Shown: positions 26,398-62,036 of the stretch, piece by piece | Numbering within the stretch: the stretch's first letter is position 1 | Layout: each line of letters begins with the position of its first letter | NCBI GenBank assembly: GCA_021817255.1 | Contig: JAKAVO010000009.1 | Location: 1-62,036, forward strand | Length of the DNA: 62,036 bases | Reading direction: 5' to 3' | Source: Thermoplasmata archaeon | GTDB taxonomy: Archaea; Thermoplasmatota; Thermoplasmata; Thermoplasmatales; Thermoplasmataceae | The notes under the pieces: generated by a model | Databases searched by the model: none | What the model was told of the DNA's origin: nothing | The model's input: the letters and a program-made list of their open reading frames with translations, nothing else | Position numbers and translations under genes: made by a program

Positions 26398-27784
26398 AAA
26401 TCTTACCTCTATTCAGTATTCCGTCTGGATCAAAATCTTTCTTGATGCCTTTCATTAATGTAAGCACTTCCATTGAGCCCCTTTCTTTCAACTCCTCAAG
26501 AAGCAATTCCTTCTTTTCAAGGCCAATCCCGTGTTCCGCTGATACGGAACCGCCATGTTTCAGTGCTATTTTTCCAAGTTCCATCTGGAACTTTTCAACC
26601 CTTTCCCTGTAGCCATTATCCTTCAGGTCCACCATTATATTGGCATGGATATTTCCATCACCAATATGCCCAAAAAGAAGTGCCTTTATTCTGAAATTTT
26701 TCATTGATCCTTCTATTTCTTTCAGGGAAGAGGGCAATTCGCTTGGTGGGACTACAACATCCCCAATTTCTATGTACTCATCCTTTGAGTCGCGTATCCC
26801 GAGCGATGAAGAATAGAGACCTTTCCTTGCTTCATACATAATTCTCATTTCATCCTTGTCCCTTGTGATCTTGATGTTGATTGGATTCTGTTCCTCTATG
26901 ATTTTCTTTGCCTCATCAAGTTTTCTGCCTATGGATTCATGTGTTGATGCTATGTCAATCATCAGGAGAAAATTGCTTCCTTCCGGGGAATCTATATTCT
27001 TGGCTTTTTTGATTGCATCCAGGGAGAGCCTGTCCATGAACTCAGCTATGTATGGGATTATTCCCTTTCCTTTGAGATTCGAAATTGACTTCCCCATGTT
27101 TTCTGAATCTTTGAAATAAGCAAGTATCCTTCCAATTTCTTCAGGAATAGGCCAGACTTTGAGGTACGCCTTGGTTATTACGGCCAGAGTCCCCTCATTT
27201 CCCACCATCAGCGCGGTTATATCATATCCTTTTGTCCTCTTCAGGGTCCTTCCCCCAACTTCAACGATTTTTCCATTGGGCAGTACAATTTCAAGCCCTA
27301 AAACCCATTCCTTTGTGGTCCCGTATGTACAAGCCCTGAGGCCTCCGGCATTTGTGGATATGCTGCCACCCACAGTGGCTGCCGTTGAACTTGCCGGGTC
27401 CGGCGGGTAGAAAAATCCCAGCTTGTTTAGGTATGCATTCAGATCATCAAGCCTGACTCCGGGTTCTGTAACTACATAACCATCCTCCACGTGCGCCTCG
27501 AGGATTTTATTCATTGCCGACATGCTTATTACTACTGAATCAGTGTATGGAACTGGAGATCCGGTCAATGCAGACCCGCCTGATCTCATAACAACTGATG
27601 TTTTGCTTTCATAACAGATTTTCATTATGTCAGCTATCTCTTCCCTGCTGCTTGCTATTGCAACTGCCCTCGGAATATTTCCTTCGTAATATGAAGAATC
27701 TTTCATATATGGAATCAGATCTTCCTTTTTTTCAAGGAGCCTCTTTCCAATCCTTTTTCTAATCTTTTGAATAGCGTCTGCCAT
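26390..27784 (-). CDS. FAD-linked oxidase, D-lactate or glycolate dehydrogenase (GlcD-like)
   Basis: This 464-aa flavoprotein has the FAD-binding PCMH fold with RSGGSALTGS, P-P-D-P-A-S-S-T-A-A-T-V-G-G, and the N-A-G-G segment. The C-terminal cap has FGHIGDGNIHANI and SAEHGIGLEKK, with metal- and substrate-binding His residues. These are hallmarks of GlcD/D-lactate dehydrogenases of the vanillyl-alcohol oxidase superfamily. It forms a two-gene operon with the Fe-S subunit. D-lactate is a plausible substrate because MurQ, encoded 26 kb away, releases it, but glycolate or D-2-hydroxyacids in general are equally possible by sequence. Confidence 0.88.
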   Translation of the reverse strand: MADAIQKIRKRIGKRLLEKKEDLIPYMKDSSYYEGNIPRAVAIASSREEIADIMKICYESKTSVVMRSGGSALTGSPVPYTDSVVISMSAMNKILEAHVEDGYVVTEPGVRLDDLNAYLNKLGFFYPPDPASSTAATVGGSISTNAGGLRACTYGTTKEWVLGLEIVLPNGKIVEVGGRTLKRTKGYDITALMVGNEGTLAVITKAYLKVWPIPEEIGRILAYFKDSENMGKSISNLKGKGIIPYIAEFMDRLSLDAIKKAKNIDSPEGSNFLLMIDIASTHESIGRKLDEAKKIIEEQNPINIKITRDKDEMRIMYEARKGLYSSSLGIRDSKDEYIEIGDVVVPPSELPSSLKEIEGSMKNFRIKALLFGHIGDGNIHANIMVDLKDNGYRERVEKFQMELGKIALKHGGSVSAEHGIGLEKKELLLEELKERGSMEVLTLMKGIKKDFDPDGILNRGKIFD

Positions 27785-48998: not shown

Positions 48999-50018
48999 TT
49001 ATTCATTCATTAATAGGAAATTCTTCCTTTCTTCCCTTGACAGCCTTCTTATCTGCCCATCCATATATTTGGCTTCAACATCCACGTTAAATTCCAAGCC
49101 TTTCTCCTCCTCCCTGAGAGAGAGGTAAATTGACCCGATAACAGCATGATAGCCATATAGAGGTTCAAATGGCATCATGTCAGGATATCTTTCCAGCACT
49201 TCTTTCCTAATATTTTTCCAGTAAAGATTGGAAGCCCTGAACAGGCCGCCATATCCACTGAATGAGACCGGCTCATCATTAAACAGATCTTCCCTCAGTG
49301 AGATTATGCACTCGGATGCCTCCCTGGCTGATTTCTGCATTATGCCAAGTGCCAGTTCGTCCCCTTTTTCAGCAAGCTGGGCAATTATGCTTGCAAACGA
49401 AGCTATCTTTCCAATGTTCAGGGGATTTGCATAGATCCTGTTTACCAGTTCTTTCATGTTGCTTATTTCAAAATATTCCAGTACAGACTCTGTAATTTCG
49501 CTTTTGTGCTTTGACCGCCCGTCAAATATTTTCAACGCTTCCTGCAATGCGCTCCGCGCAATGTAAAATGCACCGCCTTCATCCCCAAGGAGCCAGCCCC
49601 ATCCACTTGCTCTTTTGAATGATGCCCCCTTTCTTCCAAATGATACAAGCCCTGTTCCGGGGCAGACAACGATTCCGTCTTTGCCTGGAAATCTGCAGTC
49701 AAAGCCAGCTTCACCATCATTCAGCATGATTATCTTTCCACTCTGGTTCTTTCCCATGAGTGAATTTATGAGTTCATTTTTTACGTTTGAATCTTTCACG
49801 CCGGCAAGTGCCAGTGTAAATTTCTTTACTTCATTCTCCTCAATATTTGAACGTTCGAGTGCCCTCGAAATGGCTTCCCTGATGTTCTTCTCTGCCATTT
49901 CAATTCCTGATGTCCTGTAGTTGCCTGGCCCAGAAACTCCCATGCCATGTATTTTTCCGTCTTCAGAATAACAAACTGCTACTGTTTTTGTAGCTCCACC
50001 ATCCACAGAAATTAACAT
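48999..50018 (-). CDS. BadF/BadG-family amino-sugar kinase (GlcNAc/MurNAc kinase-like)
   Basis: This 339-aa ASKHA-fold kinase has the phosphate-1 motif DGGATKT at residues 6-12, the central V-V-C-P-G-T-G-L-V-S-F-G-R, and G-W-G-W-L-L-G-D-E-G-G-A, the signature of the BadF/BadG/GlcNAc-kinase group that includes human NAGK and clostridial MurK. By context it should phosphorylate MurNAc and/or GlcNAc to the 6-phosphate, the step that in B. subtilis is done by a PTS. It is last of three minus-strand genes (SIS, AmiE-like, kinase). It has a TATA-like TTTATTTA just upstream, so it may also have its own promoter. Substrate is inferred, not shown. Confidence 0.85.
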   Translation of the reverse strand: MLISVDGGATKTVAVCYSEDGKIHGMGVSGPGNYRTSGIEMAEKNIREAISRALERSNIEENEVKKFTLALAGVKDSNVKNELINSLMGKNQSGKIIMLNDGEAGFDCRFPGKDGIVVCPGTGLVSFGRKGASFKRASGWGWLLGDEGGAFYIARSALQEALKIFDGRSKHKSEITESVLEYFEISNMKELVNRIYANPLNIGKIASFASIIAQLAEKGDELALGIMQKSAREASECIISLREDLFNDEPVSFSGYGGLFRASNLYWKNIRKEVLERYPDMMPFEPLYGYHAVIGSIYLSLREEEKGLEFNVDVEAKYMDGQIRRLSREERKNFLLMNE

Positions 50019-50051
50019 AATTATTACGGATAATAATCGTTGATAAATAAA

Positions 50052-51137
50052 TTAATCTGAACTGTTCAGGTGAGAAAACACAAGATTGTGGAATCTCCTC
50101 CTGAACTTCAATATATTCAGATTCTCCCTTGTTGGGTACACCCTGTTGCTCAATATTATTGCATATGCTTTCGTTGCAGGGTCAATGCAGATTGACGTCC
50201 CGGTGAATCCTGTGTGCCCGAATGCGCCATTGTGGACCGTGTCACCCATGAAAGCGTTATATCCAAATGATGGCCCCGGTGAAACGGGCTTTGGAGTTTT
50301 TATCATCCAGCCTAGCCCGAACATGCCCCCGATATTGAGATTCTGTGGCGTTGTCATATGGTTCAGTGTTTCACTTTTCACTATTTTGCCGCTTAAAAGA
50401 GCTTTTGCAAAAATAGTGAGGTCGTGGGCATTGCTGAATAAGCCTGCATGTCCGGAAACTCCGCCATAATAATATGCCTTTTCATCGTGCACTTTCCCCC
50501 ATACTGGCATTTCCCTTCCCGGATCCTCCTCTGTGGGAGCTATGTTTTCCTTTGGAAATGAAGGATTAAATGATGAACTGTTCATGGAAAGTGGCTTAAA
50601 TATCTCTTCTTTTGCAAGAACATCCAGTGTTTTTCCTGAGAGTTCCTCCATCACAAAAGCAAGGAGAATGAAATTAAGGTCACTGTATTCTTCCGCTGCT
50701 GGCAGTGTATTGTGCTGATGCATGAGCCCTATTGTCCTCAAATAGTCTTCCTTTGCCTTCCCATGCTTTTGTAATGGAAATGTGGGAAACAGTCCGGAAG
50801 AATGTGAAATAAGCTGCTTTATTGTGAGGTTTGATATGAGCATGTCGGGTGCATACATTTTAAGCGAGCCAAGGGTGTCTTCAAGGCTCAATTTCCCCTT
50901 CTCCACATATTTCATCACAAGGGTTGCCGTTACAACAGGTTTTGTAAGCGAAGCCATGTCATATATTGTATTTTCATCATATTTGAAATTCAGTGCAGGT
51001 ATTTCTCCCTGAAAATAGGATAATTTATAGGAATCTCTCCCAACAGCAACGTTCATTCCTGAAGATGCTTCAGAATAATTCCTGTCCACAAATTCCTTCA
51101 ACTCTTCCGATAAATTTTTGAATCTTTCACTTTTCAT
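50052..51137 (-). CDS. Serine beta-lactamase-fold hydrolase, AmiE/YbbE-like MurNAc-peptide amidase
   Basis: This 361-aa protein has the SxxK nucleophile motif SLTK at residues 63-66, a YSD variant of the YxN motif at 151-153 and HTG at 308-310 in FGHTGFTGTS. The flanking segments (SHSSGLFPTFP, GGVSGHAGLFSNA) match the YfeW/YbbE group, to which the B. subtilis amidase AmiE, which cuts peptide from MurNAc, belongs. D-aminopeptidase, esterase or DD-carboxypeptidase activity is possible in the same fold. ATG 51137 lies 5 nt after GAGGTGA. There is no signal peptide, unlike secreted AmiE. Co-directional with the kinase and SIS gene. Confidence 0.85.
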   Translation of the reverse strand: MKSERFKNLSEELKEFVDRNYSEASSGMNVAVGRDSYKLSYFQGEIPALNFKYDENTIYDMASLTKPVVTATLVMKYVEKGKLSLEDTLGSLKMYAPDMLISNLTIKQLISHSSGLFPTFPLQKHGKAKEDYLRTIGLMHQHNTLPAAEEYSDLNFILLAFVMEELSGKTLDVLAKEEIFKPLSMNSSSFNPSFPKENIAPTEEDPGREMPVWGKVHDEKAYYYGGVSGHAGLFSNAHDLTIFAKALLSGKIVKSETLNHMTTPQNLNIGGMFGLGWMIKTPKPVSPGPSFGYNAFMGDTVHNGAFGHTGFTGTSICIDPATKAYAIILSNRVYPTRENLNILKFRRRFHNLVFSHLNSSD

Positions 51138-51155
51138 TTTATTCACCTCTCATTG

Positions 51156-52142
51156 CTACCACCTTACCACTTTGCTGAGATTGGACGGATGATCCGGATC
51201 AAGGCCCATCCCTGTTGCCTTGAAATTGGCGAGCAATTGCATATGCACTAACGAATTAAGTGCCTTCTGGAAGCCATCTGAAGAGGCCACTTTCAAATCT
51301 GCGTTCCCGTTTCCTATAGTGATGGTATTTCCGGCAGATGCACTTAATTTCTCCATTATCTTCATGTCAGGAACTGTTCCATCTGTTATCCATATTACTG
51401 TAGTTTCACGATCAAGCCTGTGGACAGGCCCATGAAAATATTCCCTTGTTGGATATGATTCGGTGGATACGCCTGAGGTTTCCTTAAATTTCAATCCCCC
51501 TTCAAGTGCTACCGGATAACACTTCCCGGCACCAAGGAAAACAATCTTCTGAAGTATTTTCCCTGCATATTTCTGAACCTCACCTGAATTTTTGATTATC
51601 TGCCCTATGCCACCGCATATATCATCCACTTTCTTTTCGAGTCCTGGGTTTTCTTTAAGGCAGAAGTCAATAAGGAGGGATATGGAAATCTGCACCGCGT
51701 GTGATTTTGTTGCCGCAACTGATCTTTCTTCACCGGCATATGTCAGAACGCAGAGATCAGATTCTCTGGACAAATAACTATCTTTTTCATTTGTTATTCC
51801 AACGACTTTAAATCCATTTTCTTTTGAAAGCTCTAAATTTGATATTGCATCAGAACTTTCCCCTGACTGGCTGAAGATTATGTTCAACACTTTCCCTTTG
51901 AGTTTCCTGATTATGTTCTCACTGTATTCCGACGATGTAATGGCCATTGACCTGATTCCGTTTTCCAGCAATGTGTAATTAAGCATTACTGCAGCGTTAT
52001 AGCTTGTCCCACTGCCGGTGATGAAAATGAATGAAGATTCCTTTATCTCATTTATTAAAGGCTGAATTGAATCCATGTTTTTATTAAGAGTTTTTCTGAT
52101 AGCTTCTGGTTCCTCCCTAATTTCATCAAACATAATCGTCAT
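51156..52142 (-). CDS. SIS-domain glucosamine-6-phosphate deaminase/isomerase (NagB-II/GlmS-isomerase type)
   Basis: This 328-aa protein has two SIS domains and no glutaminase domain. It shows the sugar-phosphate loop ITGSGTSYNA (43-50), SQSGESSDAISNLE, A-A-T-K-S-H and GLKFKETSGVSTESY with HGPVHR. The absence of the amidotransferase half makes it a deaminase (GlcN-6-P to fructose-6-P and ammonia) rather than a GlmS synthase, as for archaeal GlmD/NagB-II. In this cluster it would complete amino-sugar salvage after NagA. A TTTATAG box at 52167-52173 lies 25-30 nt before the ATG. Confidence 0.85.
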   Translation of the reverse strand: MTIMFDEIREEPEAIRKTLNKNMDSIQPLINEIKESSFIFITGSGTSYNAAVMLNYTLLENGIRSMAITSSEYSENIIRKLKGKVLNIIFSQSGESSDAISNLELSKENGFKVVGITNEKDSYLSRESDLCVLTYAGEERSVAATKSHAVQISISLLIDFCLKENPGLEKKVDDICGGIGQIIKNSGEVQKYAGKILQKIVFLGAGKCYPVALEGGLKFKETSGVSTESYPTREYFHGPVHRLDRETTVIWITDGTVPDMKIMEKLSASAGNTITIGNGNADLKVASSDGFQKALNSLVHMQLLANFKATGMGLDPDHPSNLSKVVRW

Positions 52143-52166
52143 GCAGGGGATATATAGATTTTAACG

Positions 52167-52173
52167 CTATAAA
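52167..52173 (-). promoter_or_regulatory. TATA-like box of the SIS-AmiE-kinase operon
   Basis: TTTATAG on the minus strand, about 25-31 nt before the ATG at 52142, fits a leaderless transcript. Confidence 0.45.
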
Positions 52174-52280
52174 CCTTATGTGGCATCCTCTCCACCCTGA
52201 TTGCCGGATAATTGGTGCGTGTCAACTGGAAACTAATGTTTACCGGGAGAGAAGAGATTTAATTTCCCGAATAAATATGA

Positions 52281-52553
52281 ATGCATTTGCCAAAGAATGT
52301 CTTATCTGTGCGAATAGGCGGTTGCACAGCTGATCTGATTGAAAAACTCACAATGCATAAAATGGTTAATAACGGATCAAATGCTGTGAAGCGGACTCAT
52401 GATTAAGAAGTGGAAAGAAAAATGATTCCCAGCATTTCCGTTCAGCTTGCCCAAAATTTCTATCAGGGATAGGAGATAATGCCGGTTTATGTTGATGCAA
52501 ATAGGAAGTTTGTTAACTGGAAGAACATAGCGTCAATCCTTCCTGAGCTTTGA
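52281..52553 (+). pseudogene. Possible decayed ribbon-helix-helix (CopG/VapB-like) gene
   Basis: A 91-codon reading frame is open except for two stops (TAA at 52404-52406, TAG at 52470-52472). The first 41 codons read V-L-S-V-R-I-G-G-C-T-A-D-L-I-E-K-L followed by N-N-G-S-N-A-V-K-R, close to the ribbon-helix-helix pattern of CopG/VapB antitoxins (sVRi, then LIekL, then NrSeAVr). Alternatively it is a short real RHH protein of 41 aa followed by noise. It lies in the 481-bp gap between the two divergent halves of the murein salvage region, where a local regulator could have been. Confidence 0.3.
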
Positions 52554-52591
52554 AAAATGAAACTCCTTCCCAATCAACTCAACGTTAGAAC

Positions 52592-52600
52592 TATATATAT
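52592..52600 (+). promoter_or_regulatory. TATA-like box of nagA
   Basis: TATATATAT lies 24-32 nt before the GTG start at 52624, at the spacing of a leaderless archaeal promoter. It points to separate control of the plus-strand arm of the cluster. Confidence 0.45.
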
Positions 52601-52623
52601 TAAAATAAAATATCAATTATGCA

Positions 52624-53784
52624 GTGAGCCAATTGGAAAGTAGTATTCTGGTAAAGAAAGCAGTAGTTCCTGGAGGGTACGCTAATAACTGTTTTTTAAA
52701 TATAAAACATGGAAAAATTCACAGCATAACCAAAAATGGAGCATTCAGCAATGTCCTGAAAGATTATTCCCATCTTACTGCAATTCCGGGGTTTATAGAT
52801 ATACACACCCATGGATATTATGGGGTCGATGCAACATACTCTTCAGTGGATGATATCCACAGATGGTCCTCAATGCTGGCGAAAAGAGGAGTGACTTCAT
52901 TTATTCCAACATGTGTCTCTTTGCCTTTTGAACAAACTGCTGAATTTATTGAAAGAATTAAACTGGCTTCAACAACACAAAAGCCGGATGAGGCGAGGAT
53001 AATAGGAACGAGAAGCGAAGGGCCATATATAAGCAGAGAAAAAAAGGGTGCACATAATCCCATGTATATCAGAGATCCGGACATAAACGAGATCGAAAAA
53101 TTTGTTGAAGCTTCTGGAGATTTTCCATTTATAATAGATATGGCGCCTGAACTTACTGGTTTTCAGGAATCTGCCAAATATTTGGTAAGAAACAATAAAA
53201 TCGTGTCCATTGGGCATTCTGCTGCTTCTTATTCAGACGCAATGAGTGGAATAGGTGGAGGGGCAAAATTAATGACACACTTTTTCAACGCAATGTCCCC
53301 AATGAAACACAGGGAGGTTGGAATGGTTGGAGCCGGGTTTTTAACAGATAGTATCTATTTGGAGATTGTAGCAGACCTGCGCCATGTATCAGAAGAAGCC
53401 ATCAGGATTTTATTTAAGATCAGGGACGTGGATCATATTATTGGGATAACCGATTCACTTTCCATAGGGGGGACAACAACATTAAATACCCAACTGGGGG
53501 GTATGGAAATTGTGGTCAGAGATGGTGTTGCCTGGGTCAAGAATTCAGATACAATCGCCGGAAGTGTTTTGACAATGGATGCTGCATTCAGGAATTTGCA
53601 TAGATTGATTCCTGATCTGTCCAGCCTGGCAAAAATTTTCTCCACAAACGCTGCAAAGGCATTGAATTTGAAAAGTACGGGGCTTATTGACGCCGGAATG
53701 GACGCGGATATAAATTTTATAGATGATGAAATGAATGTTAAGGAAACCATGATCAGAGGAAACCTGCTGGGAAGCAAAAGCTAA
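52624..53784 (+). CDS. nagA: N-acetylglucosamine-6-phosphate deacetylase NagA
   Basis: This 386-aa amidohydrolase-fold enzyme removes acetate from GlcNAc-6-P. Metal and active-site motifs are HTHGYYG at 61-67, SEGPYIS with Glu132 and KKGAHN, IGHSAAS with His198, M-T-H-F-F-N-A-M with His219, and catalytic Asp277 in GITDSL. Start is GTG 52624, with TATA 24-32 nt upstream; an ATG five bases earlier is out of frame. It opens a plus-strand trio (nagA, murQ, epimerase) and follows MurQ in the pathway. Confidence 0.92.
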   Translation: MSQLESSILVKKAVVPGGYANNCFLNIKHGKIHSITKNGAFSNVLKDYSHLTAIPGFIDIHTHGYYGVDATYSSVDDIHRWSSMLAKRGVTSFIPTCVSLPFEQTAEFIERIKLASTTQKPDEARIIGTRSEGPYISREKKGAHNPMYIRDPDINEIEKFVEASGDFPFIIDMAPELTGFQESAKYLVRNNKIVSIGHSAASYSDAMSGIGGGAKLMTHFFNAMSPMKHREVGMVGAGFLTDSIYLEIVADLRHVSEEAIRILFKIRDVDHIIGITDSLSIGGTTTLNTQLGGMEIVVRDGVAWVKNSDTIAGSVLTMDAAFRNLHRLIPDLSSLAKIFSTNAAKALNLKSTGLIDAGMDADINFIDDEMNVKETMIRGNLLGSKS

Positions 53785-53833
53785 ACTGAAAATCTTTATG
53801 CAAAATAAACATTCACTCTTAAGGGTGTAAAAT

Positions 53834-54661
53834 ATGGTATCCTCCACGGAAGATCTGAATCCGTTTTCAACAGAAATTGGGCAGTGGGACATTGATGCAA
53901 TTAGCGCTTTCATTCACATGTCGGATATAGCTGCCTATGAGGCGGTCAGTGGAGCAATTGACAAAATTTCAAAAGCAAGCAGCATCATGCTTGAATCCAT
54001 AAAAAATGAAGGAAAAATAATATATCTCGGAGCTGGAACAAGTGGAAGAATTGCCGCCCAGGATGTTGTAGAGCTTCTGCCCACATATGGGCTGGGGCCA
54101 GATTTCTTTGATTTTATACTCGCAGGTGGAATTGGATCACTTGTTAAATCAGTCGAAGGCGCCGAAGACGATAAAAATGGATCAATAAAAGAACTTCAGG
54201 AAAAAAACTTAAGCCCCAAAGATGTCGTTGTTGGCATCACGGCATCCGGATCAACGCCTTTTGTTCTCGGAGGGATGGACTTTGCACGCCAAAAGGGATG
54301 TGCCACAATAGGGATAACAAACAACTTCAACAAGAAAATACAGCAATTTTCTGACCTGTTAATTGTGCTGCCAACCGGCCCTGAAGTGATTCAGGGATCA
54401 ACAAGAATGAAAGCAGGGACAGCCCAGAAAATGGCACTGAATATAATATCCACCACCGTAGCAATAAAACTCGGAAGGACGTACAAAAACACTATGTCCC
54501 ACATGGGTTCATGGTATAATGAAAAGCTGAAGAATAGATCAGTTAACATACTCGTTACCCAATTTGCAATACCGGAAGGTGAAGCTGCCAAACTTCTTTC
54601 TGAAAATGATTATGACATCAGGAAGTGTATTGAACATTTGGCAAAGAGAAAGCCGAAGTAG
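53834..54661 (+). CDS. murQ: N-acetylmuramic acid 6-phosphate etherase MurQ
   Basis: MurQ cleaves the lactyl ether of MurNAc-6-P to GlcNAc-6-P and D-lactate. This 275-aa SIS protein has LGAGTSGRI (65-73) and D-V-V-E with the Glu80 equivalent, the E-G-A-E-D block (108-112) with the second catalytic Glu, GITASGSTPF, and the family signature GSTRMKAGTAQKM (188-200). It is a little shorter than bacterial MurQ (~300 aa), ending before the C-terminal helix. MurQ is normally a bacterial gene; its presence in an archaeal genome indicates use of bacterial murein. It follows nagA by 49 bp. Confidence 0.93.
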   Translation: MVSSTEDLNPFSTEIGQWDIDAISAFIHMSDIAAYEAVSGAIDKISKASSIMLESIKNEGKIIYLGAGTSGRIAAQDVVELLPTYGLGPDFFDFILAGGIGSLVKSVEGAEDDKNGSIKELQEKNLSPKDVVVGITASGSTPFVLGGMDFARQKGCATIGITNNFNKKIQQFSDLLIVLPTGPEVIQGSTRMKAGTAQKMALNIISTTVAIKLGRTYKNTMSHMGSWYNEKLKNRSVNILVTQFAIPEGEAAKLLSENDYDIRKCIEHLAKRKPK

Positions 54662-54710
54662 TTAATTTAGTGCAGTCAACTTAATATTATTAATTATTAT
54701 AGTCCGGTGA

Positions 54711-55787
54711 ATGATAAAGTCAATCAATTTTCAGAGGATAAATCTGGTAATGAAGAAGCCATTTAAAATTGCCCTCGGAACAACAGAATTCTATGAAGGA
54801 TTTTTTGTTTCTATTGAGACGAATGATGGAATTACAGGATTCGGGGAAGCAACAACTACCCCTTTCATAACAGGGGACACCATGGGTTCTATTGAAAGTG
54901 AACTGTCCTATTTTTCGAAGAAACTTGCCGGAGAGGAGGAATCACCTGAAATAGTCAACTCTAAGATGAAGTCATTGATGAGATCGTCCAAAGCGAGCAG
55001 AAATGCCATTGATTGTGCTTTATGGGACATTATAGGAAAGAGGGCAAACATGAATCTTGCAAAATTGCTCGGAAACCACAAGAAGTCAATCCTGACATCC
55101 TACACTGTGGATCTTGTTGATGAGGCATCCGCAAGGGCACAGGCAAAAGAACTCCTTAACCAGGGGCTGAAAGTTTTCAAGATCAAGGTAGGTTCAGGAA
55201 TCGAGGAAGACCTCAGAAGGGTTAGGGCTGTAAGGGAGGTTGTTGGAGATGGCAAGATGATCTATATCGATTTCAACCAGGCCTACAGTGTAAAAAATAC
55301 TGTCAGGATTTCCAGGCTGCTTGAACCCTACAACATCGAATTCATTGAACAGCCTATCGCTTCAACTGACATAGCAGGATTGAGGTTTATAAGAGATCAC
55401 TCTGAGATTCCGGTTTATGCTGATGAAACCATATTTACTCCGCAGGATGTTTCTGAAGTGCTCCGTAGGGAAGCGGTGGATGGAATCAATATTAAACTCA
55501 TGAAGTCAGGTGGAATTTCTGATGCCATGCAGATGGCAAATACGGCAAAATCGTTCGGTGTTCCTGTAATGATTGGCTGCATGGTGGAGACGAGGATTGC
55601 GAATACATCCGGACTGGTTGTTGCGCTGGGCAACAGTGCAGTAAAATATGCTGATCTTGACGGCTACAATAATATAAGGGATGACCCTGTTTCAGAGGGA
55701 ATTCTGTTGAAGAATGGAGAAGTGGGCCTTTCCAGCGATTTGCCTGGAACAGGAATTACACTAAAAGATGAGTTTCAGGTAAAGTAA
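54711..55787 (+). CDS. Dipeptide epimerase (L-Ala-D/L-Glu epimerase type, enolase superfamily)
   Basis: This 358-aa enzyme has the acid/base lysines Lys157 and Lys159 (FKIKVGSG) and Lys262 or Lys265 (IKLMKSGG), metal ligands Asp187, Glu213 and Asp238, and the D-L-D motif (Asp315, Asp317) that holds the dipeptide amino group in Ala-Glu epimerases. Known members turn L-Ala-D-Glu from murein peptides into L-Ala-L-Glu. The 20s loop reads F-K-I-A-L-G, with Gly where B. subtilis YkfB has an Arg that binds Glu, so specificity may differ; TM0006-like enzymes also lack that Arg. It follows murQ by 49 bp and is convergent with nagZ (2 bp gap). Confidence 0.88.
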   Translation: MIKSINFQRINLVMKKPFKIALGTTEFYEGFFVSIETNDGITGFGEATTTPFITGDTMGSIESELSYFSKKLAGEEESPEIVNSKMKSLMRSSKASRNAIDCALWDIIGKRANMNLAKLLGNHKKSILTSYTVDLVDEASARAQAKELLNQGLKVFKIKVGSGIEEDLRRVRAVREVVGDGKMIYIDFNQAYSVKNTVRISRLLEPYNIEFIEQPIASTDIAGLRFIRDHSEIPVYADETIFTPQDVSEVLRREAVDGINIKLMKSGGISDAMQMANTAKSFGVPVMIGCMVETRIANTSGLVVALGNSAVKYADLDGYNNIRDDPVSEGILLKNGEVGLSSDLPGTGITLKDEFQVK

Positions 55788-55789
55788 TT

Positions 55790-57205
55790 TTATATTTTTC
55801 CCATAAGCCCAAACGCCTTCAGGATAGCACCTGTTACCACAGTGGGCTTTTTGGAATATGCGCTTATATAACCCATATTTTCTGAAAGTATTCCCATATC
55901 ACCATCAAAACTTGTTGATATGAAAACACAACTGTTGGTGATGGAAATTTCATTTAGCATGTTCACCCTGTTTTTCAAGTGTTCATTTCTGCCAACGAAG
56001 ATTATCTGTTTTCCGGAATCGCGGAACTTCTCAAGGTACTCTGTGCCATAATATATCTCTATATCAAAATTCAAATCTTTCACCTTGTTTGCAATAACCT
56101 CTGAAACGTTTGTTTCTTCCGCAACATTGGTCTCCCTTTTTGTGTCCATCATGAATAAGATGGTTTTCTTCTCCGGGTCCAGCGCTTTCTTTCTTTTAAC
56201 TTGTGGAAAAACAACCTCTACAGAGTTCAAGAGAAGTGGCGATGGCTTGAAAGATGGCTTATTGACAGGTTCCAGGAATTTCATTATTCTTTCTGCCTTT
56301 GCTTTCAGCAGGCTCCTGTCCATCTTCTCTATTATTTCAAAAAACTCCAGTGACGCGGCAATGTTTGCATCTTCTATTACATCAACCTCATTTCCAATAG
56401 ACCCTTTCACTACTTCAGAAGTGCTGTACCTTCCCTTGACTGATTTCATATCCATCGAGTCAGATATTATTAATTTATTATATCCAAAATCTTCTCTGAG
56501 CAATTTTTGAACTGCACGGGAAAGAGTTGCCGGATAGTTTTCATCCAGGGAATTGTAAAGCACATGGGACAACATGACAGAACTGACTCCTGCTTCTATA
56601 GCTTTCCTGAACGGGAATGCATCATTTATTATAGATTCCGGGTTGCGTTTGTCTTCCGGCAAATCCAGGTGTGAATCAACCATTACAGATCCATGCCCGG
56701 GAAAATGCTTTGCAGTTGCCCTTACTCCATAGGACTGTATTCCCTTTATGTATTCTGAGCCATGTTTTGCGATTAGATCCAGGCCCGATCCAAATGACCT
56801 TTCAAGGATAACGGGGTTGTATCCATTTAAGGTGTCAAGTACCGGGGCAAGGTTCCAGCCTATTCCAAGCCCGTGCAATTGATAACCAGCCAGCCTGCCA
56901 ACATAATTTGTGAATTCGGGATCATTAAGTTTTCCCAGAAAAAGGTTGCTGGGGCTGTAATCTATCCATGGAATTCTTACGACGTTCCCACCCTCCTGAT
57001 CAACAGCTATTATGGGTGCTGAAACATTGTTTTCCACAACATATATGTGATTAATTTTTCTGATCAGTTCCAGTAGTTCTTTTTCATTCCTGAAATCAAC
57101 GCTGAAAAGAACTATTGATACTGGCAACATCTTCGAGACATGCCTGAAGCTTTCCTCGCTGTCTACTCCTCTCAAACCGGTCTGGATGAATAATCCCGAT
57201 CTCAT
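55790..57205 (-). CDS. nagZ: Beta-N-acetylglucosaminidase NagZ (GH3)
   Basis: This 471-aa GH3 protein has VDQEGGNVVRI (69-78), W-N-L-A-P-V-L-D, KHFPGHG (166-172), the loop Asp177-Ser-His179 that supplies the catalytic acid/base in NagZ enzymes, and the nucleophile Asp249 in IISDSMDM. The Asp-His dyad separates NagZ from other GH3 enzymes. It should release GlcNAc from the non-reducing end of GlcNAc-MurNAc(-peptide). A ~120-residue C-terminal domain follows, as in Bacillus NagZ. No signal peptide. It starts just 8 nt after the CocE-like gene with an AGGTG site covering that gene's stop. Confidence 0.9.
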   Translation of the reverse strand: MRSGLFIQTGLRGVDSEESFRHVSKMLPVSIVLFSVDFRNEKELLELIRKINHIYVVENNVSAPIIAVDQEGGNVVRIPWIDYSPSNLFLGKLNDPEFTNYVGRLAGYQLHGLGIGWNLAPVLDTLNGYNPVILERSFGSGLDLIAKHGSEYIKGIQSYGVRATAKHFPGHGSVMVDSHLDLPEDKRNPESIINDAFPFRKAIEAGVSSVMLSHVLYNSLDENYPATLSRAVQKLLREDFGYNKLIISDSMDMKSVKGRYSTSEVVKGSIGNEVDVIEDANIAASLEFFEIIEKMDRSLLKAKAERIMKFLEPVNKPSFKPSPLLLNSVEVVFPQVKRKKALDPEKKTILFMMDTKRETNVAEETNVSEVIANKVKDLNFDIEIYYGTEYLEKFRDSGKQIIFVGRNEHLKNRVNMLNEISITNSCVFISTSFDGDMGILSENMGYISAYSKKPTVVTGAILKAFGLMGKI

Positions 57206-57213
57206 GATAACAC

Positions 57214-58896
57214 CTATTCCTCAGGTTTATTAAATGTATTTTGCCATTCATATCCATCAAGAACCTGAAGTTCAACCCTTGAAGGATATTTCATGCCATG
57301 GAAAACCTTCTGATTTGCGATCTCATATTCTGCAGTTGCATATTGTTTCCCCCATATGTTCTGGTTTCTCGCATATTTAGGAAATGCGCTTGAAGAGATT
57401 TCCACCCTTAATCTGTGGCCCTTCTTTACCTCGTGAAACATGTGCCACATATCCACCTCTATTTCAATCAGGTCTTCAGGAGTATATGGCAATTCTTTAA
57501 ACGGCCCTTCCCTGTGCCTCAACCTTACGATGCCATCCTGCAGCCTTTGGGAATAGCCATCCAGATGGCTATCAATAATCATCATGGTGAAATCCGTGTC
57601 TTTGCAGCTGGAAGACACAAAAATTTTCCCCTTCAGCTTTCCTGCAAGAATCAAGCTTTCCTTCATTGGCTCCGTTGTATACACAAGAATATCTTTTCTC
57701 GTTTCTATTTCAGAGTAGTCATCTGGCCCACCTATCTGTGCGAAACCCTCACCTGAGATAAACGTGGCTGGATTCATAGGATCGTAAGTAAATTGATCAT
57801 TTCCTGCATCATGTGAAGGTGGTTCAAATTGGAGTTCTCCATCACCATTCACGCTTCTTGCATCTGTTCTTGAGTTGAGGTACAGTTTCACCATAGATGT
57901 GTTTTTTATTGGCCAGTCTTCAAAATCCATCCATTTATTGGGCCCCATAAGGAATATTTTTACTCTTTCCTTCTGAACTGGATTTTTTTCTTCCAGTATG
58001 CCATTTATCCAGTTTGACTCTATGGAAACAAGGTCCAGTTTTGAATCATTTCCGAAATCCAGGTGGCCATTTATTATATCTTTATTCACAGCATGGCCCC
58101 ATGGGCCAACTATAAGGTTCTGGTTGTTCCTGGAAAAGGCACTCCCTGACTGTTTTCTCATATTCTCATAATTTATGAATGTGCCAATCTGTTCATCATC
58201 ATACCATCCTGAAATATGCATCACAGGAATGTCCAGGCTTTCCATTTTTCCCTGGTAAAAAAGTGGCTTCCAGAAATCACTGGCCGGGCTATTTATGAAA
58301 TATTCTTTCCATATTGGGATTTCTGCACCTGTTTTTTCAGGCAAATCAAGAAGAGGCAAATGATTGTAAACTTCCTCCCAGTTCACACTGTTGATATTCT
58401 GCATTCCACGGCCCCTTAGGGAAAATAGCCAGGAGAGGTTCATTGGTGAATGGTATACAGTTGGATTTTCAACAAAGGGATCCGAAGGTGAAACGATGCT
58501 GATCATGCCCTTCAGATGGCCTGGTTTTTTAAGTGCGGTTAGCCATTGGATTCTTGCAGAATAGGAAGCACCCCAGGTTATGACATTCCCATCGGACCAT
58601 TTTTCCGCAGCAAAGTGTCCTATCAAGGCTAAACCATCATTTGCCTCTGAAAAATAAGGAGTAAACCTGCCATCTGATTCTCCCCTTCCCCTCACATCAT
58701 TTGCTATGAATGCAAAACCAGCTTTGTTGAATCCTCTTGCAACTTCCAGCAATTCATCAGAATTTTTTCCATATGGCGTTCTGAACAGTATTACCGGATT
58801 TTTTCCCTTCCTTTCAGGGAGGTAAATGTCAGAAGACAATTCAGTTCCATCCCCCATTTTAGCCCTGTTATCATATAAAATCATATGGTTGCCCAT
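57214..58896 (-). CDS. CocE/NonD-type alpha/beta hydrolase (S15 X-Pro dipeptidyl peptidase family)
   Basis: This 560-aa protein has an N-terminal alpha/beta hydrolase with G-A-S-Y-S-A (Ser111 nucleophile; usual form G-x-S-Y-x-G), D-V-R-G-R-G-E-S-D-G around residues 67-76, a helical cap, the Asp in H-I-S-G-W-Y-D-D and the His in V-G-P-W-G-H-A, and a C-terminal jelly-roll domain. Family members are X-Pro dipeptidyl peptidases, cocaine esterase, glutaryl-7-ACA acylase and alpha-amino-acid ester hydrolases. It lies between nagZ and namZ with short gaps, so it may act on a peptide or ester part of the muropeptide, but its substrate is unknown. It has no signal peptide. TTTATTTATATATTA just upstream suggests its own promoter. 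Confidence 0.85.
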   Translation of the reverse strand: MGNHMILYDNRAKMGDGTELSSDIYLPERKGKNPVILFRTPYGKNSDELLEVARGFNKAGFAFIANDVRGRGESDGRFTPYFSEANDGLALIGHFAAEKWSDGNVITWGASYSARIQWLTALKKPGHLKGMISIVSPSDPFVENPTVYHSPMNLSWLFSLRGRGMQNINSVNWEEVYNHLPLLDLPEKTGAEIPIWKEYFINSPASDFWKPLFYQGKMESLDIPVMHISGWYDDEQIGTFINYENMRKQSGSAFSRNNQNLIVGPWGHAVNKDIINGHLDFGNDSKLDLVSIESNWINGILEEKNPVQKERVKIFLMGPNKWMDFEDWPIKNTSMVKLYLNSRTDARSVNGDGELQFEPPSHDAGNDQFTYDPMNPATFISGEGFAQIGGPDDYSEIETRKDILVYTTEPMKESLILAGKLKGKIFVSSSCKDTDFTMMIIDSHLDGYSQRLQDGIVRLRHREGPFKELPYTPEDLIEIEVDMWHMFHEVKKGHRLRVEISSSAFPKYARNQNIWGKQYATAEYEIANQKVFHGMKYPSRVELQVLDGYEWQNTFNKPEE

Positions 58897-58910
58897 TCTC
58901 TAATGGGATT

Positions 58911-58925
58911 TAATATATAAATAAA
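58911..58925 (-). promoter_or_regulatory. TATA-like stretch of the CocE-nagZ unit
   Basis: On the minus strand TTTATTTATATATTA lies roughly 15-29 nt before the ATG at 58896, so the CocE-like and nagZ genes can be transcribed independently of namZ. Confidence 0.4.
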
Positions 58926-58933
58926 GTGTGGAT

Positions 58934-60148
58934 TCAGTAAAGAACTATATCTGAGAGATTTTCTATATACTGGCTCAATTCTGGCTGGTATCCTTCTATT
59001 ATGCTGTCTGGCCTTTCCCCTGACACAATGCCCTTTCTTATTGCCGGGTTTCCGGCAACAGAATCAAAGTAATGATCGTGATATGCAAATTTGTCCCCAT
59101 GTACAGAAGAGATTGATGACAGGAGATATATCGCGAATTCAAAGGGCTTGAATACATTTCTGCCAGTTACATTTAACATTATTCCATTGCACTTCTCTTC
59201 CGAGTATTTTGAAAAATAAGGCTTGAACTTTACCTCGTTGAGCAGGACGCCTCTAATGTTGGAGTTTTTGAGGAGGGAAAGCACTTTCTTGGGATTCAGC
59301 CACGGAGCGCCAATTATCTGGAAGGGTTTTGTTGTTCCCCTTCCCTCAGAAACATTGGTTCCTTCAAGGAGAACGCTTCCCGGATACACTGTTGCAGTCT
59401 CCAGTGTTGGCATGTTTGGTGATGGGAATGCCCAGGATATCCCCAGTTGATCGTACCACATGCCTCTTTTCCATCCCTTCATCTTGACAACATTAAGCCT
59501 CGTGTTTCCATGCGATATTCTCATGTTATAGAAGTTAGCGAGTTCGCCAATGGTGAGCGAGTGCTTGATTGGCACGGGCAGGGCACCAATAAAGGATTGT
59601 TGGCTGTCCAGCAGGATGGGCCCATCAGGTTCTTTTCCCTGTATTGGATTAGGCCTGTCAAGCACCACAAAATCTATTTCTGTTCTGCTGATGGTTTCCA
59701 TAACGTAAATCATTGTTGCTATGTATGTGTAAATCCTGCAGCCAACATCCTGGAGATCAAATATTATGGTATCGAACTGCTGTGCAATTTCTTTTGAAAT
59801 GTACTTTGAAGGGTCTTTGATCGAGTCGATCTCCCTCATTTCCTGATCTATGTCTACTGGTTGATTGCCATTTTTTTTGCGCTTTTGTTCAGGCGCCCTG
59901 TACATGCTTTCAACCTCCACCCCCAGTTCCTGATCAAAATATGATTCTACTGTTTCTCCTGACTGAAAGTCGCCGAAATAGCCATGTTCTGGTGTGAGCA
60001 ATGTTAACTTCCTGTATCCTCCCAACTCCCTGATTATATCAAGTGCAGGCCTTCCTTCACCATTTCTCGCGGAATTGTTGGTTATTAAGGCAACCTTTTT
60101 TCCGTCTATGAATTTCTCCCTGAGCGATTTAACCTGATCAATTCCCAT
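58934..60148 (-). CDS. namZ: Exo-beta-N-acetylmuramidase NamZ (DUF1343, YbbC family)
   Basis: This 404-aa protein matches DUF1343 along its whole length: L-I-T-N-N-S, TPEHGYFGD (52-60), F-D-L-Q-D-V-G (130-136), VLDRPNPIQG, G-A-L-P-V-P-I-K-H-S-L-T-I-G-E-L-A, F-P-S-P-N-M-P-T-L, and YPGSVLLEGTNVSEGRGT with G-A-P-W. B. subtilis NamZ releases MurNAc from the non-reducing end of MurNAc-GlcNAc. Here there is no signal peptide, so it is probably cytosolic. ATG 60148 is preferred; GTG 60154 adds two residues. A TATA-like box is at 60177-60185. Confidence 0.93.
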   Translation of the reverse strand: MGIDQVKSLREKFIDGKKVALITNNSARNGEGRPALDIIRELGGYRKLTLLTPEHGYFGDFQSGETVESYFDQELGVEVESMYRAPEQKRKKNGNQPVDIDQEMREIDSIKDPSKYISKEIAQQFDTIIFDLQDVGCRIYTYIATMIYVMETISRTEIDFVVLDRPNPIQGKEPDGPILLDSQQSFIGALPVPIKHSLTIGELANFYNMRISHGNTRLNVVKMKGWKRGMWYDQLGISWAFPSPNMPTLETATVYPGSVLLEGTNVSEGRGTTKPFQIIGAPWLNPKKVLSLLKNSNIRGVLLNEVKFKPYFSKYSEEKCNGIMLNVTGRNVFKPFEFAIYLLSSISSVHGDKFAYHDHYFDSVAGNPAIRKGIVSGERPDSIIEGYQPELSQYIENLSDIVLY

Positions 60149-60176
60149 TATCACAAATGGTGTATTATCAGATAGA

Positions 60177-60185
60177 ATTTAAATA
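60177..60185 (-). promoter_or_regulatory. TATA-like box of namZ
   Basis: TATTTAAAT on the minus strand about 25-35 nt before the namZ start fits a leaderless promoter; ATTTAAAT here is also self-complementary. Confidence 0.4.
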
Positions 60186-60214
60186 GTGATTCTTCTGATT
60201 TTTCTTTAAAACCT

Positions 60215-60904
60215 TTACAGGCTTTTAGTAACACGGCCTATCTTTTCAAAAATGGTATGCAGGTAATTAGAATATTTGCTTTCATCAAAGAGGTTGTTTA
60301 TAGAGACGCTTGCTGAATTGCCATTAGCATGAATCATATTTCCATCTCCAAGGTATAATCCTACGTGGCCTTTAAAGAAAACAAGGTCTCCCGGAACTGC
60401 ATCCTCAAATTTATCAACTGTTTCAGTGTGGTTTTTCTGGCTGTTTGAGTTTCTTGGTATCTGGATTCCTGTAAATTTATAAAGCCTCTGGACGAACCCT
60501 GAACAGTCATATCCGAATTCAGATGTGCCTCCCCAAAGATAGGGAACTCCCATAAATTCTTTAGATAGTTCGCACACATTATAGTTGTTATCCGAAATAT
60601 TTGCCAGTTTGTTTTTTGGAATCTTATATTTCTCAACTTCTTCCCTGCTTAAGTAAGAACCAAATGGCAGTTTTATTTCCGGTGTGCTGTGAAACTTTTT
60701 CAGCTTGAATGCCTTTTCTGGAAGTTCGGCGATTATATTTGTTTTAACATATCCTTTAACGTGATCTTCTGATTGAATGAGAGAATAGGATTCACCACTT
60801 TCAAGCAACTCAAACTTTTCACCATAAACAATCTGGGACTGCCTTTCCGACTCGAACACTGGCTTGCTCCTCATGTCGCCAACACCAATTCTTATCTGAT
60901 ACAT
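60215..60904 (-). CDS. SH3b-NlpC/P60 endopeptidase (YkfC-like gamma-D-Glu-diaminopimelate peptidase)
   Basis: This 229-aa protein has an SH3b-like domain (about residues 1-60) and a C-terminal NlpC/P60 cysteine peptidase domain: PYLWGGTSEFGYDCSGFVQ with Cys134, G-H-V-G-L-Y-L-G with His180, and M-I-H-A-N with His192. The order SH3b then NlpC/P60, and the motif details, match YkfC, which cuts L-Ala-gamma-D-Glu / diaminopimelate when L-Ala is free. It has no signal peptide, consistent with cytosolic muropeptide processing as in YkfC. It is 60 bp upstream of namZ in the same direction. Confidence 0.9.
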   Translation of the reverse strand: MYQIRIGVGDMRSKPVFESERQSQIVYGEKFELLESGESYSLIQSEDHVKGYVKTNIIAELPEKAFKLKKFHSTPEIKLPFGSYLSREEVEKYKIPKNKLANISDNNYNVCELSKEFMGVPYLWGGTSEFGYDCSGFVQRLYKFTGIQIPRNSNSQKNHTETVDKFEDAVPGDLVFFKGHVGLYLGDGNMIHANGNSASVSINNLFDESKYSNYLHTIFEKIGRVTKSL

Positions 60905-61070
60905 TCTGCATTATGGCTGAGTGGAATATGAAGCTTATTGTTGGCAATCTGCAGTTAAGAGGTGCAGATTTTTGATTCCTGAAACTGATGGTTGCCATGA
61001 CATGAGATTCATTAGCATTGTCCAGAATGAAAGCTAAGATATACTCATTCACGATTATAAATAAGTAAAA

Positions 61071-61607
61071 ATGGCAACTGAACTTAAAAGTGTTATAATT
61101 GTGCTGGGGTGCAAACCCTCAGGATGCGCACCAACTGAAGAAATGGTTGGCAGATCGAAAGTTGCTGCAGATTTATTTTTGTCAGCCAGTGGAGAAACTC
61201 TGCTGATCACATCCGGGGGGGCAACTGAAAAAGGCTGTGATGTTTCAGAGGCAGAATTCATGGCACAGGAATTGATAAAACTCGGTATCGGTGATGAAAA
61301 AATATTCAGGGAGGAAAAAGCAGGAACTACAATCGGGAATGCTGTATTCACGAAATTGCTCCTTCAAAAGATGGATGTAACATTTCAGGAAATGCATATT
61401 GTCACTTCCTGTTACCACAGATCAAGATCGGAATTTATTTTCAAGAAAATTTTCTCAATCGGGAATATTCATTCAGATTATTGTTTCGATCAAACGGTGC
61501 CCAGAGAAAGTGAAATAAATAAACTGCGCAGGGACTCCATGATATTGGAAAAGATGAAGGGATTCAGAACAGAGGAGATTGAAGAAAAGTTCAGTGATTT
61601 TATTTGA
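61071..61607 (+). CDS. DUF218 / YdcF-SanA-like protein
   Basis: This 178-aa protein has the DUF218 core: V-I-I-V-L-G-C at the start, RSKVAADLFL, L-L-I-T-S-G-G-A-T, E-A-E-F-M-A-Q-E-L, and A-G-T-T-I-G-N-A with a following V-T-S-C-Y-H-R-S-R. Related bacterial SanA and ElyC act in envelope/peptidoglycan homeostasis, and YdcF binds S-adenosylmethionine; the biochemical function is not known. It lacks the N-terminal membrane anchor of SanA/ElyC, so is likely soluble. It is divergent from the NlpC/P60 gene and convergent with lysA. Confidence 0.82.
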   Translation: MATELKSVIIVLGCKPSGCAPTEEMVGRSKVAADLFLSASGETLLITSGGATEKGCDVSEAEFMAQELIKLGIGDEKIFREEKAGTTIGNAVFTKLLLQKMDVTFQEMHIVTSCYHRSRSEFIFKKIFSIGNIHSDYCFDQTVPRESEINKLRRDSMILEKMKGFRTEEIEEKFSDFI

Positions 61608-61648
61608 AAAATTTTCTGGAGATAACTGAAAGAGCATGGTGAGGAAAA

Positions 61649-62036
61649 TTATCTGGTTGCTTTTGCAGCAAATTTTGTGTGCCTTATAATATCTTCAAAT
61701 GTGTCTTCATTCCTTATTGTAATGATTTCTCCTGCCTTTATTAACAGCTCTTTTGGGAGCAGCCTTCCATTATAGTTGCTTGCCATTGACATTGTATATG
61801 CTCCACAGTTAAAGACAGCCACTATATCCCCATTTTCAGGCTCAGGAAGTGTTAAATCTTTTCCTATCCTGTCCGTATTTTCACATATCTGGCCGGTCAC
61901 ATCGGTTTTAAAGTTGTTTTCTTTGCCAAGCTTGTTTGCAATGGTTATGTGGTGATAGGCACCGTAAAGGGCAGGCCTCATCAATAGGTTCATTCCAATG
62001 TCAGTGCCCATGTAGTTTGTATCCTGCCTTTTGACA
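61649..62036 (-). CDS. lysA: Diaminopimelate decarboxylase LysA, C-terminal part
   Basis: The C-terminal ~128 residues of a PLP fold-III decarboxylase are seen; the gene runs beyond the right edge. It contains M-N-L-L-M-R-P-A-L-Y-G-A-Y-H, the cysteine motif T-G-Q-I-C-E-N-T-D, and G-A-Y-T-M-S-M-A-S-N-Y-N-G-R, all hallmarks of diaminopimelate decarboxylase, which turns meso-diaminopimelate into L-lysine. Beside the YkfC-like peptidase it could use diaminopimelate freed from murein. Whether this cell also makes diaminopimelate de novo cannot be judged here. Confidence 0.92.
   Translation of the reverse strand, partial: VKRQDTNYMGTDIGMNLLMRPALYGAYHHITIANKLGKENNFKTDVTGQICENTDRIGKDLTLPEPENGDIVAVFNCGAYTMSMASNYNGRLLPKELLIKAGEIITIRNEDTFEDIIRHTKFAAKATR

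Follow-up and report, generated by a model that had tools for sequence, protein, structure and literature searches.

A gene cluster predicted to catabolize bacterial muropeptides in wall-less archaea of the order Thermoplasmatales

In Bacillus subtilis, the genes murQ, murR, murP, amiE, nagZ and namZ form a cluster, and NagZ and NamZ act in sequence. The window analyzed here corresponds to the full length of one contig (C46; 62,036 bp) from a Thermoplasmata archaeon of the order Thermoplasmatales, whose assembly comprises 1.32 Mb in 54 contigs (78% complete, 0.6% contaminated). From position 48,999 to its right end, the window carries a gene cluster (Table 1) in which MurQ, an AmiE-like hydrolase, NagZ and NamZ are likewise found together. 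In contrast to the B. subtilis cluster, the archaeal cluster lacks MurR and the phosphotransferase system (MurP), which is replaced by a kinase, and its enzymes carry no signal peptides; it additionally contains NagA, a SIS protein, peptidases, an epimerase and LysA, and the host apparently makes no murein. The epimerase and the NlpC/P60 peptidase, which are homologous to PDB entries 1jpm and 3h41, resemble the YkfABC and YcjG system of murein tripeptide degradation, whereas the archaeal cluster joins them to sugar-processing genes and to LysA for diaminopimelate (DAP). An ATP-dependent BadF-type kinase feeding MurQ, as predicted here, is also a feature of the clostridial MurK routes and of murTKQ in Tannerella forsythia, which scavenges N-acetylmuramic acid (MurNAc) with NamZ (PMC10465942; PDB 8zo3). 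However, T. forsythia must supply a murein wall of its own, whereas the archaeal host has none and its kinase is closer to archaeal hexokinase.

The nearest archaeal work concerns lytic peptidoglycan hydrolases (GH25 lysozyme, PMC4241558; Woldo of Halogranum, PMC12352652), which resemble the present cluster in their target, bacterial murein, and in their bacterial descent. These hydrolases are lytic and many are secreted, whereas the present cluster would serve downstream intracellular catabolism, and, within the order, GH25 and the cluster are found in separate families. The nutritional role was left open in that work, and a 2025 study asked whether bacteria are "parcels of nutrition" or whether environmental peptidoglycan is scavenged (PMC12352652). 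No description of an archaeal MurQ/NamZ pathway was found in the open-access literature, subscription literature and preprints lying outside the scope of the search. This agrees with the initial annotation of the window, which knew of no described archaeal counterpart of such completeness, but the locus is not unique, as haloarchaeal plasmids hold a simpler NamZ-NagZ-AnmK version. On the plasmids of Halorussus, Natrononativus, Halomontanus and Haladaptatus (L117-L121), NamZ (annotated as DUF1343), NagZ, AnmK, a serine hydrolase and Dpp-like transporters are present, although not every gene in each, and one of these clusters also holds a peptidoglycan-recognition protein. NamZ, NagZ, the serine hydrolase and the Dpp-like transporter are shared with the Thermoplasmatales cluster, whereas AnmK takes the place of the BadF kinase and MurQ, NagA and LysA are absent from the stretches read. 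The haloarchaeal clusters appear to be a separate archaeal locus for murein use. The enzymes of the present cluster are of known kinds; what is new is that they are found in archaea, so completely within a single cluster, in a layout that relies on a kinase and is all-cytoplasmic, and that they are conserved across an order.

The cluster very probably encodes a pathway by which a wall-less archaeon breaks down imported bacterial muropeptides in its cytoplasm, with activity, substrates, direction and import deduced from gene presence, motifs, linkage and co-occurrence. Family searches were performed with Pfam gathering scores and the curated (equivalog) cut-offs of NCBIfam, and the nearest solved structures were taken from the PDB. 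All ten activities that the initial annotation had assembled into a nearly complete murein salvage set have a matching gene, and the checked motifs are intact; its inventory lacked the CocE/S15 hydrolase and the DUF218 protein. All of the cluster proteins have Pfam domains above the gathering score, and NagA (TIGR00221 equivalog, 272.9 against 225.65 bits), MurQ (NF003915, 298.4 against 168 bits) and CocE also pass NCBIfam cut-offs. MurQ does not reach the narrower TIGR00274 (238.7 against 302 bits); the alignment with E. coli MurQ reveals that the catalytic residues Glu83 and Glu114 are both present, and its closest solved relative is 4s12. The full LysA, which is encoded on a second contig (C5), passes the TIGR01048 equivalog (342 against 298 bits), and NamZ scores 217 bits with NamZ_N and 152 bits with NamZ_C.

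In NagZ, the Asp-x-His general acid/base dyad (KHFPGHGSVMVDSH) and the Asp nucleophile (SDSM) are kept, with a PRK05337 score of 157 bits (cut-off 207). The KIKVG, IKLMK and DLD motifs of the epimerase are in register with 3jva, a dipeptide epimerase, and 1jpm, an L-Ala-D/L-Glu epimerase, and the protein scores below the equivalog cut-off. The NlpC/P60 protein combines SH3 and NlpC/P60 folds with the Cys-His motifs, and its best PDB match is the NLP/P60 protein 3h41. The serine hydrolase has the SxxK and Tyr motifs of AmiE and is linked to MurQ in many loci; its best NCBIfam match is PBP4B (NF002968, 128.6 bits, below cut-off), and no PDB match was obtained at E 1e-20. The SIS protein, which has no glutaminase domain, matches the isomerase half of GlmS at 189 bits and the NagB-II and GlmD deaminase models at 132 and 107 bits (cut-offs 430 and 580 for the latter two), all below cut-off. 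The kinase keeps the Asp and ATP motifs, and its two best PDB matches are hexokinase 2e2n and, second, the MurNAc/N-acetylglucosamine (GlcNAc) kinase 8zo3. The MurQ Glu pair, the NagZ dyad, the NlpC Cys-His, the Lys-x-Lys and second Lys of the epimerase and the kinase Asp are functional residues in these families, and Asp-x-Asp in the epimerase is the mark of dipeptide epimerases, related to the dipeptide amino group.

In the predicted pathway, an oligopeptide-type ATP-binding cassette (ABC) transporter with large solute-binding proteins would import wall fragments, the S66 and NlpC/P60 peptidases would trim the stem peptide, and the AmiE-like hydrolase would separate the peptide from the sugar. 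NagZ and NamZ would release GlcNAc and MurNAc, both of which may be phosphorylated by the BadF kinase. MurQ would take D-lactate off MurNAc 6-phosphate, NagA would remove acetate, and the SIS protein would deaminate glucosamine 6-phosphate to fructose 6-phosphate. In the peptide branch, the epimerase would convert L-Ala-D-Glu to L-Ala-L-Glu, and LysA would convert meso-DAP to lysine. The D-lactate from MurQ could be oxidized by a GlcD/GlcF-type pair. A pair homologous to GlcD/GlcF adjoins the cluster of one genome (G036), and another is found at 25,120-27,784 of the window.

The LysA gene at the right end of the window is continued on contig C5 (6,880 bp), which overlaps the last 364 nt (61673-62036) at 98.6%. 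In addition to the full LysA, C5 encodes a second NamZ, a giant family-5 solute-binding protein of 1,046 aa and an S66 LD-carboxypeptidase-like protein; the latter has both S66 LD-carboxypeptidase domains, and in NCBIfam it matches muramoyltetrapeptide carboxypeptidase alone (112 bits, below cut-off). The join is beyond doubt because the same gene set, in nearly the same order, lies on one contig in a congener (G048; 99% complete, single contig), with 54-84% protein identity to the window. In this congener, the epimerase and NagZ genes are separated by an insert (L034:7319-15692) that encodes a sugar ABC transporter, a GH31 glycosidase, a TrmB regulator and a further, second BadF kinase.

Table 1. 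Genes of the cluster at the right end of the window, in order, and a distant GlcD/GlcF-type pair.
Feature	Position	Strand	Evidence and remarks
BadF/BadG-type sugar kinase, candidate MurNAc/GlcNAc 6-kinase (MurK-like)	48999..50018	-	PF01869; DGGATKT, NDGE, GWLLGDEG motifs
Serine beta-lactamase-fold hydrolase, candidate N-acetylmuramoyl-L-alanine amidase (AmiE/YfeW-like)	50052..51146	-	PF00144; SLTK, YSDLN motifs
Double-SIS protein without glutaminase domain, candidate glucosamine-6-phosphate deaminase (NagB-II/GlmD-like)	51156..52142	-	PF01380, two stretches
NagA, N-acetylglucosamine-6-phosphate deacetylase	52624..53784	+	TIGR00221 above cut-off
MurQ, N-acetylmuramic acid 6-phosphate etherase	53834..54661	+	NF003915 above cut-off; E83 and E114 (E. 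coli MurQ) kept; archaeal clade
Dipeptide (L-Ala-D/L-Glu) epimerase	54711..55787	+	Best NCBIfam NF041118, below cut-off; KIKVG, IKLMK, DLD motifs
NagZ, GH3 beta-N-acetylglucosaminidase	55790..57205	-	PF00933; PRK05337 below cut-off; KHFPGHGSVMVDSH dyad and SDSM; PDB 6k5j, 3bmx
CocE/NonD (S15) hydrolase	57214..58896	-	TIGR00976 above cut-off; best PDB match cocaine esterase
NamZ, exo-beta-N-acetylmuramidase, no signal peptide	58934..60154	-	PF07075 and PF20732 above cut-off; PDB 4k05, 4jja
SH3-NlpC/P60 peptidase, candidate gamma-D-Glu-mDAP endopeptidase (YkfC-like), no signal peptide	60215..60904	-	PF00877; PDB 3h41
DUF218 protein, kept in clusters	61071..61607	+	PF02698
LysA, diaminopimelate decarboxylase, C-terminal 128 aa; rest on contig C5	61649..62035	-	PF00278
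GlcD-type FAD oxidase, possible D-lactate dehydrogenase; not adjacent, pathway link a guess	26390..27784	-	PF01565, PF02913; TIGR00387 378 bits, below cut-off
GlcF-type Fe-S partner of the GlcD-type oxidase; pathway link a guess	25120..26397	-	Partial NCBIfam matches TfrB/GlcF/LdhH

No hydrophobic N-terminus or signal peptide is present in the cluster enzymes, and the giant solute-binding protein has a C-terminal hydrophobic segment. On a further contig of the same genome (C41), OppC-, OppD- and OppF-type genes run straight into a second MurQ (MurQ2), which passes TIGR00274 (315.6 against 302 bits), and at least nine other genomes have an oligopeptide-type (Opp/Dpp) ABC transporter adjacent to the cluster. 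The lack of N-terminal signals and the transporter linkage point to uptake of fragments and subsequent cytoplasmic breakdown, with wall fragments as the likely transported substrate. Giant family-5 solute-binding proteins of 1,046-1,291 aa adjoin the clusters (L033:2-3142, L040:2250-6125), and these proteins have no Pfam match beyond their first half.

The cluster is shared within the order far beyond chance. Among 117 genomes of the order (p-values without correction for relatedness), MurQ above cut-off is present in 22, from 10 genera and 3 families. NamZ is found in 21 genomes, 20 of which are among the 22 with MurQ (p = 3e-19), and NlpC/P60 occurs in all 22 MurQ genomes versus 6 of the 95 others (p = 1e-18). 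Every one of the 11 genomes that have AnmK also has MurQ (p = 8e-10). NagZ, the AmiE-like hydrolase, NagA, the SIS protein, the epimerase, NlpC and LysA each recur nearby in 9 to 19 of the 23 genomes that hold MurQ or NamZ, counts for which contig ends and the extent of the stretches read set a limit; the CocE/S15 hydrolase is found in 10 of the 23 and DUF218 in 9. Related genomes, to which the initial annotation had pointed, do hold the cluster, as the same neighborhood is present in complete genomes of the same genus and family (including G048 and G073). Outside the order, NamZ occurs in only four genomes of a phylum sample of 390.

In bacteria, such gene sets serve self-recycling, which raises the possibility that the cluster recycles a polymer of the organism's own making that resembles murein or pseudomurein. 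A host that recycles its own murein would have Mur ligases and a source of DAP. However, DapF is absent from the 11 genomes searched, seven of which are MurQ-positive and at least 90% complete, including the complete G048 and G073. Mur-ligase-type genes above cut-off number one per genome in these 11 genomes, and that of the genome of the window is FolC (350 against 163 bits) and was rejected as a true Mur ligase. LysA without DapF suggests no evident home-made meso-DAP, meso-DAP dehydrogenase (Ddh) not having been searched for. The missing DapF and the FolC identity imply that the murein must come from outside, and, to the extent that gene content can show it, self-recycling is ruled out, in agreement with the initial annotation. 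Additionally, the order is described as having no S-layer (PMC12448462), and recycling of a self-made polymer is very improbable. Bacterial contamination of the segment, or a very recent transfer, would be in keeping with the bacterial families of all the enzymes and with the patchy distribution (22 of 117 genomes), but even less credence, next to none, is given to it. The break in composition near 49 kb that the initial annotation associated with contamination is not observed in GC content or in GC content at third codon positions (GC3), both of which continue as in the rest of the contig. Archaeal core genes are found on the same contig, which encodes SecY, ribosomal protein L3 and a protein homologous to tricorn-interacting factor F3 (E = 7e-184), a factor known from Thermoplasma. 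The presence of the cluster in the single-contig congener also argues against contamination, as does the MurQ tree, in which 21 archaeal sequences form one clade (99/99) apart from 15 bacterial sequences; contamination was therefore ruled out. MurQ2 groups with the bacterial sequences, as does one MurQ from outside the order, and the NamZ tree contains two archaeal clades and a separate haloarchaeal clade. The pattern would fit an old gain with many losses or a transfer within the order, in trees that do not point to a donor, given their thin bacterial sampling and a root placed for drawing only.

Breakdown of chitin or of GlcNAc from glycoproteins, with MurQ and NamZ homologs that have drifted to other substrates, could also be the role of the cluster, as a pathway restricted to GlcNAc could make use of NagA, NagZ, the SIS protein and the kinase, and the kinase resembles a broad hexokinase. 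This is improbable, however, given that both catalytic Glu residues are kept in MurQ, that NamZ, NlpC/P60 and AnmK co-occur with MurQ, and that the epimerase, LysA and S66 act on stem peptides rather than on chitin. A variant of muropeptide catabolism, in which the main gain is amino acids (lysine, alanine and glutamate) or the removal of muropeptides and not sugar energy, is suggested by LysA without DapF and by the oligopeptide-type transporters; it is unlikely, though less so than the chitin or GlcNAc alternative, because the sugar branch to fructose 6-phosphate is present and conserved and a GlcD/GlcF pair for possible D-lactate oxidation adjoins one cluster.

Several observations weigh against catabolism of imported muropeptides as the function of the cluster. 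The nearest solved relative of the kinase is an archaeal hexokinase, and MurNAc phosphorylation would be the weakest link of the sugar branch. The kinase, the epimerase, the SIS protein, NagZ and the serine hydrolase score below the curated NCBIfam equivalog cut-offs, so the exact substrates given for these five enzymes are predictions. CocE and DUF218 have no assigned pathway step, although they are conserved cluster members. S66 is found in 60 of the 117 genomes, with or without MurQ and with no association (p = 0.24), and was dropped as a pathway marker as it is widespread in the order; the genome of the window (G000) is only 78% complete. Additionally, no GH25 or GH73 depolymerase was found in the genomes with the cluster, other hydrolase families not having been searched for, and these two families were rejected there as the wall-breaking partner. 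As no such lysozyme was found, lysis of living bacteria is not supported. The proposal of the initial annotation that the organism feeds on bacterial walls holds to the extent that the genes indicate uptake of ready-made fragments, whereas wall feeding goes beyond the data, with neither signal peptides nor GH25/GH73 at hand. The murein may come from debris, from fragments or through an unrecognized wall-breaking enzyme. Within the order, GH25 lysozyme genes are confined to one other family (f3), where 13 genomes (G006-G017 and G022) have them and no member has MurQ; killers and salvagers are possibly different lineages of the order.

A near-complete catabolic set in wall-less archaea makes the question of nutrition versus scavenging testable, as specific predictions follow from it for growth substrates, for products (D-lactate, acetate, ammonia and lysine) and for gene induction. 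It suggests that wall-less archaea feed on bacteria or bacterial remains, which would constitute a trophic link from bacteria to archaea and the transfer of a whole pathway, beyond single genes, between domains. More tentatively, this lineage may live partly on bacterial murein for carbon, nitrogen and lysine, through a trait acquired from bacteria at an early stage, maintained as a single cluster and lost on many occasions, and some members may lyse neighbors with an unrecognized enzyme.

In both archaeal and bacterial clusters (L041, L042, L049 by position only, L050, L120 and L123), a GNAT acetyltransferase is repeatedly found next to NamZ, AmiE-like or transporter genes. Like CocE and DUF218, it has no assigned step, although restoring acetyl groups to de-N-acetylated wall sugars might be its role. 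Upstream of the cluster in one genome (G113), a thermopsin-type acid protease of 1,360 aa is encoded (L052:3351-7433).

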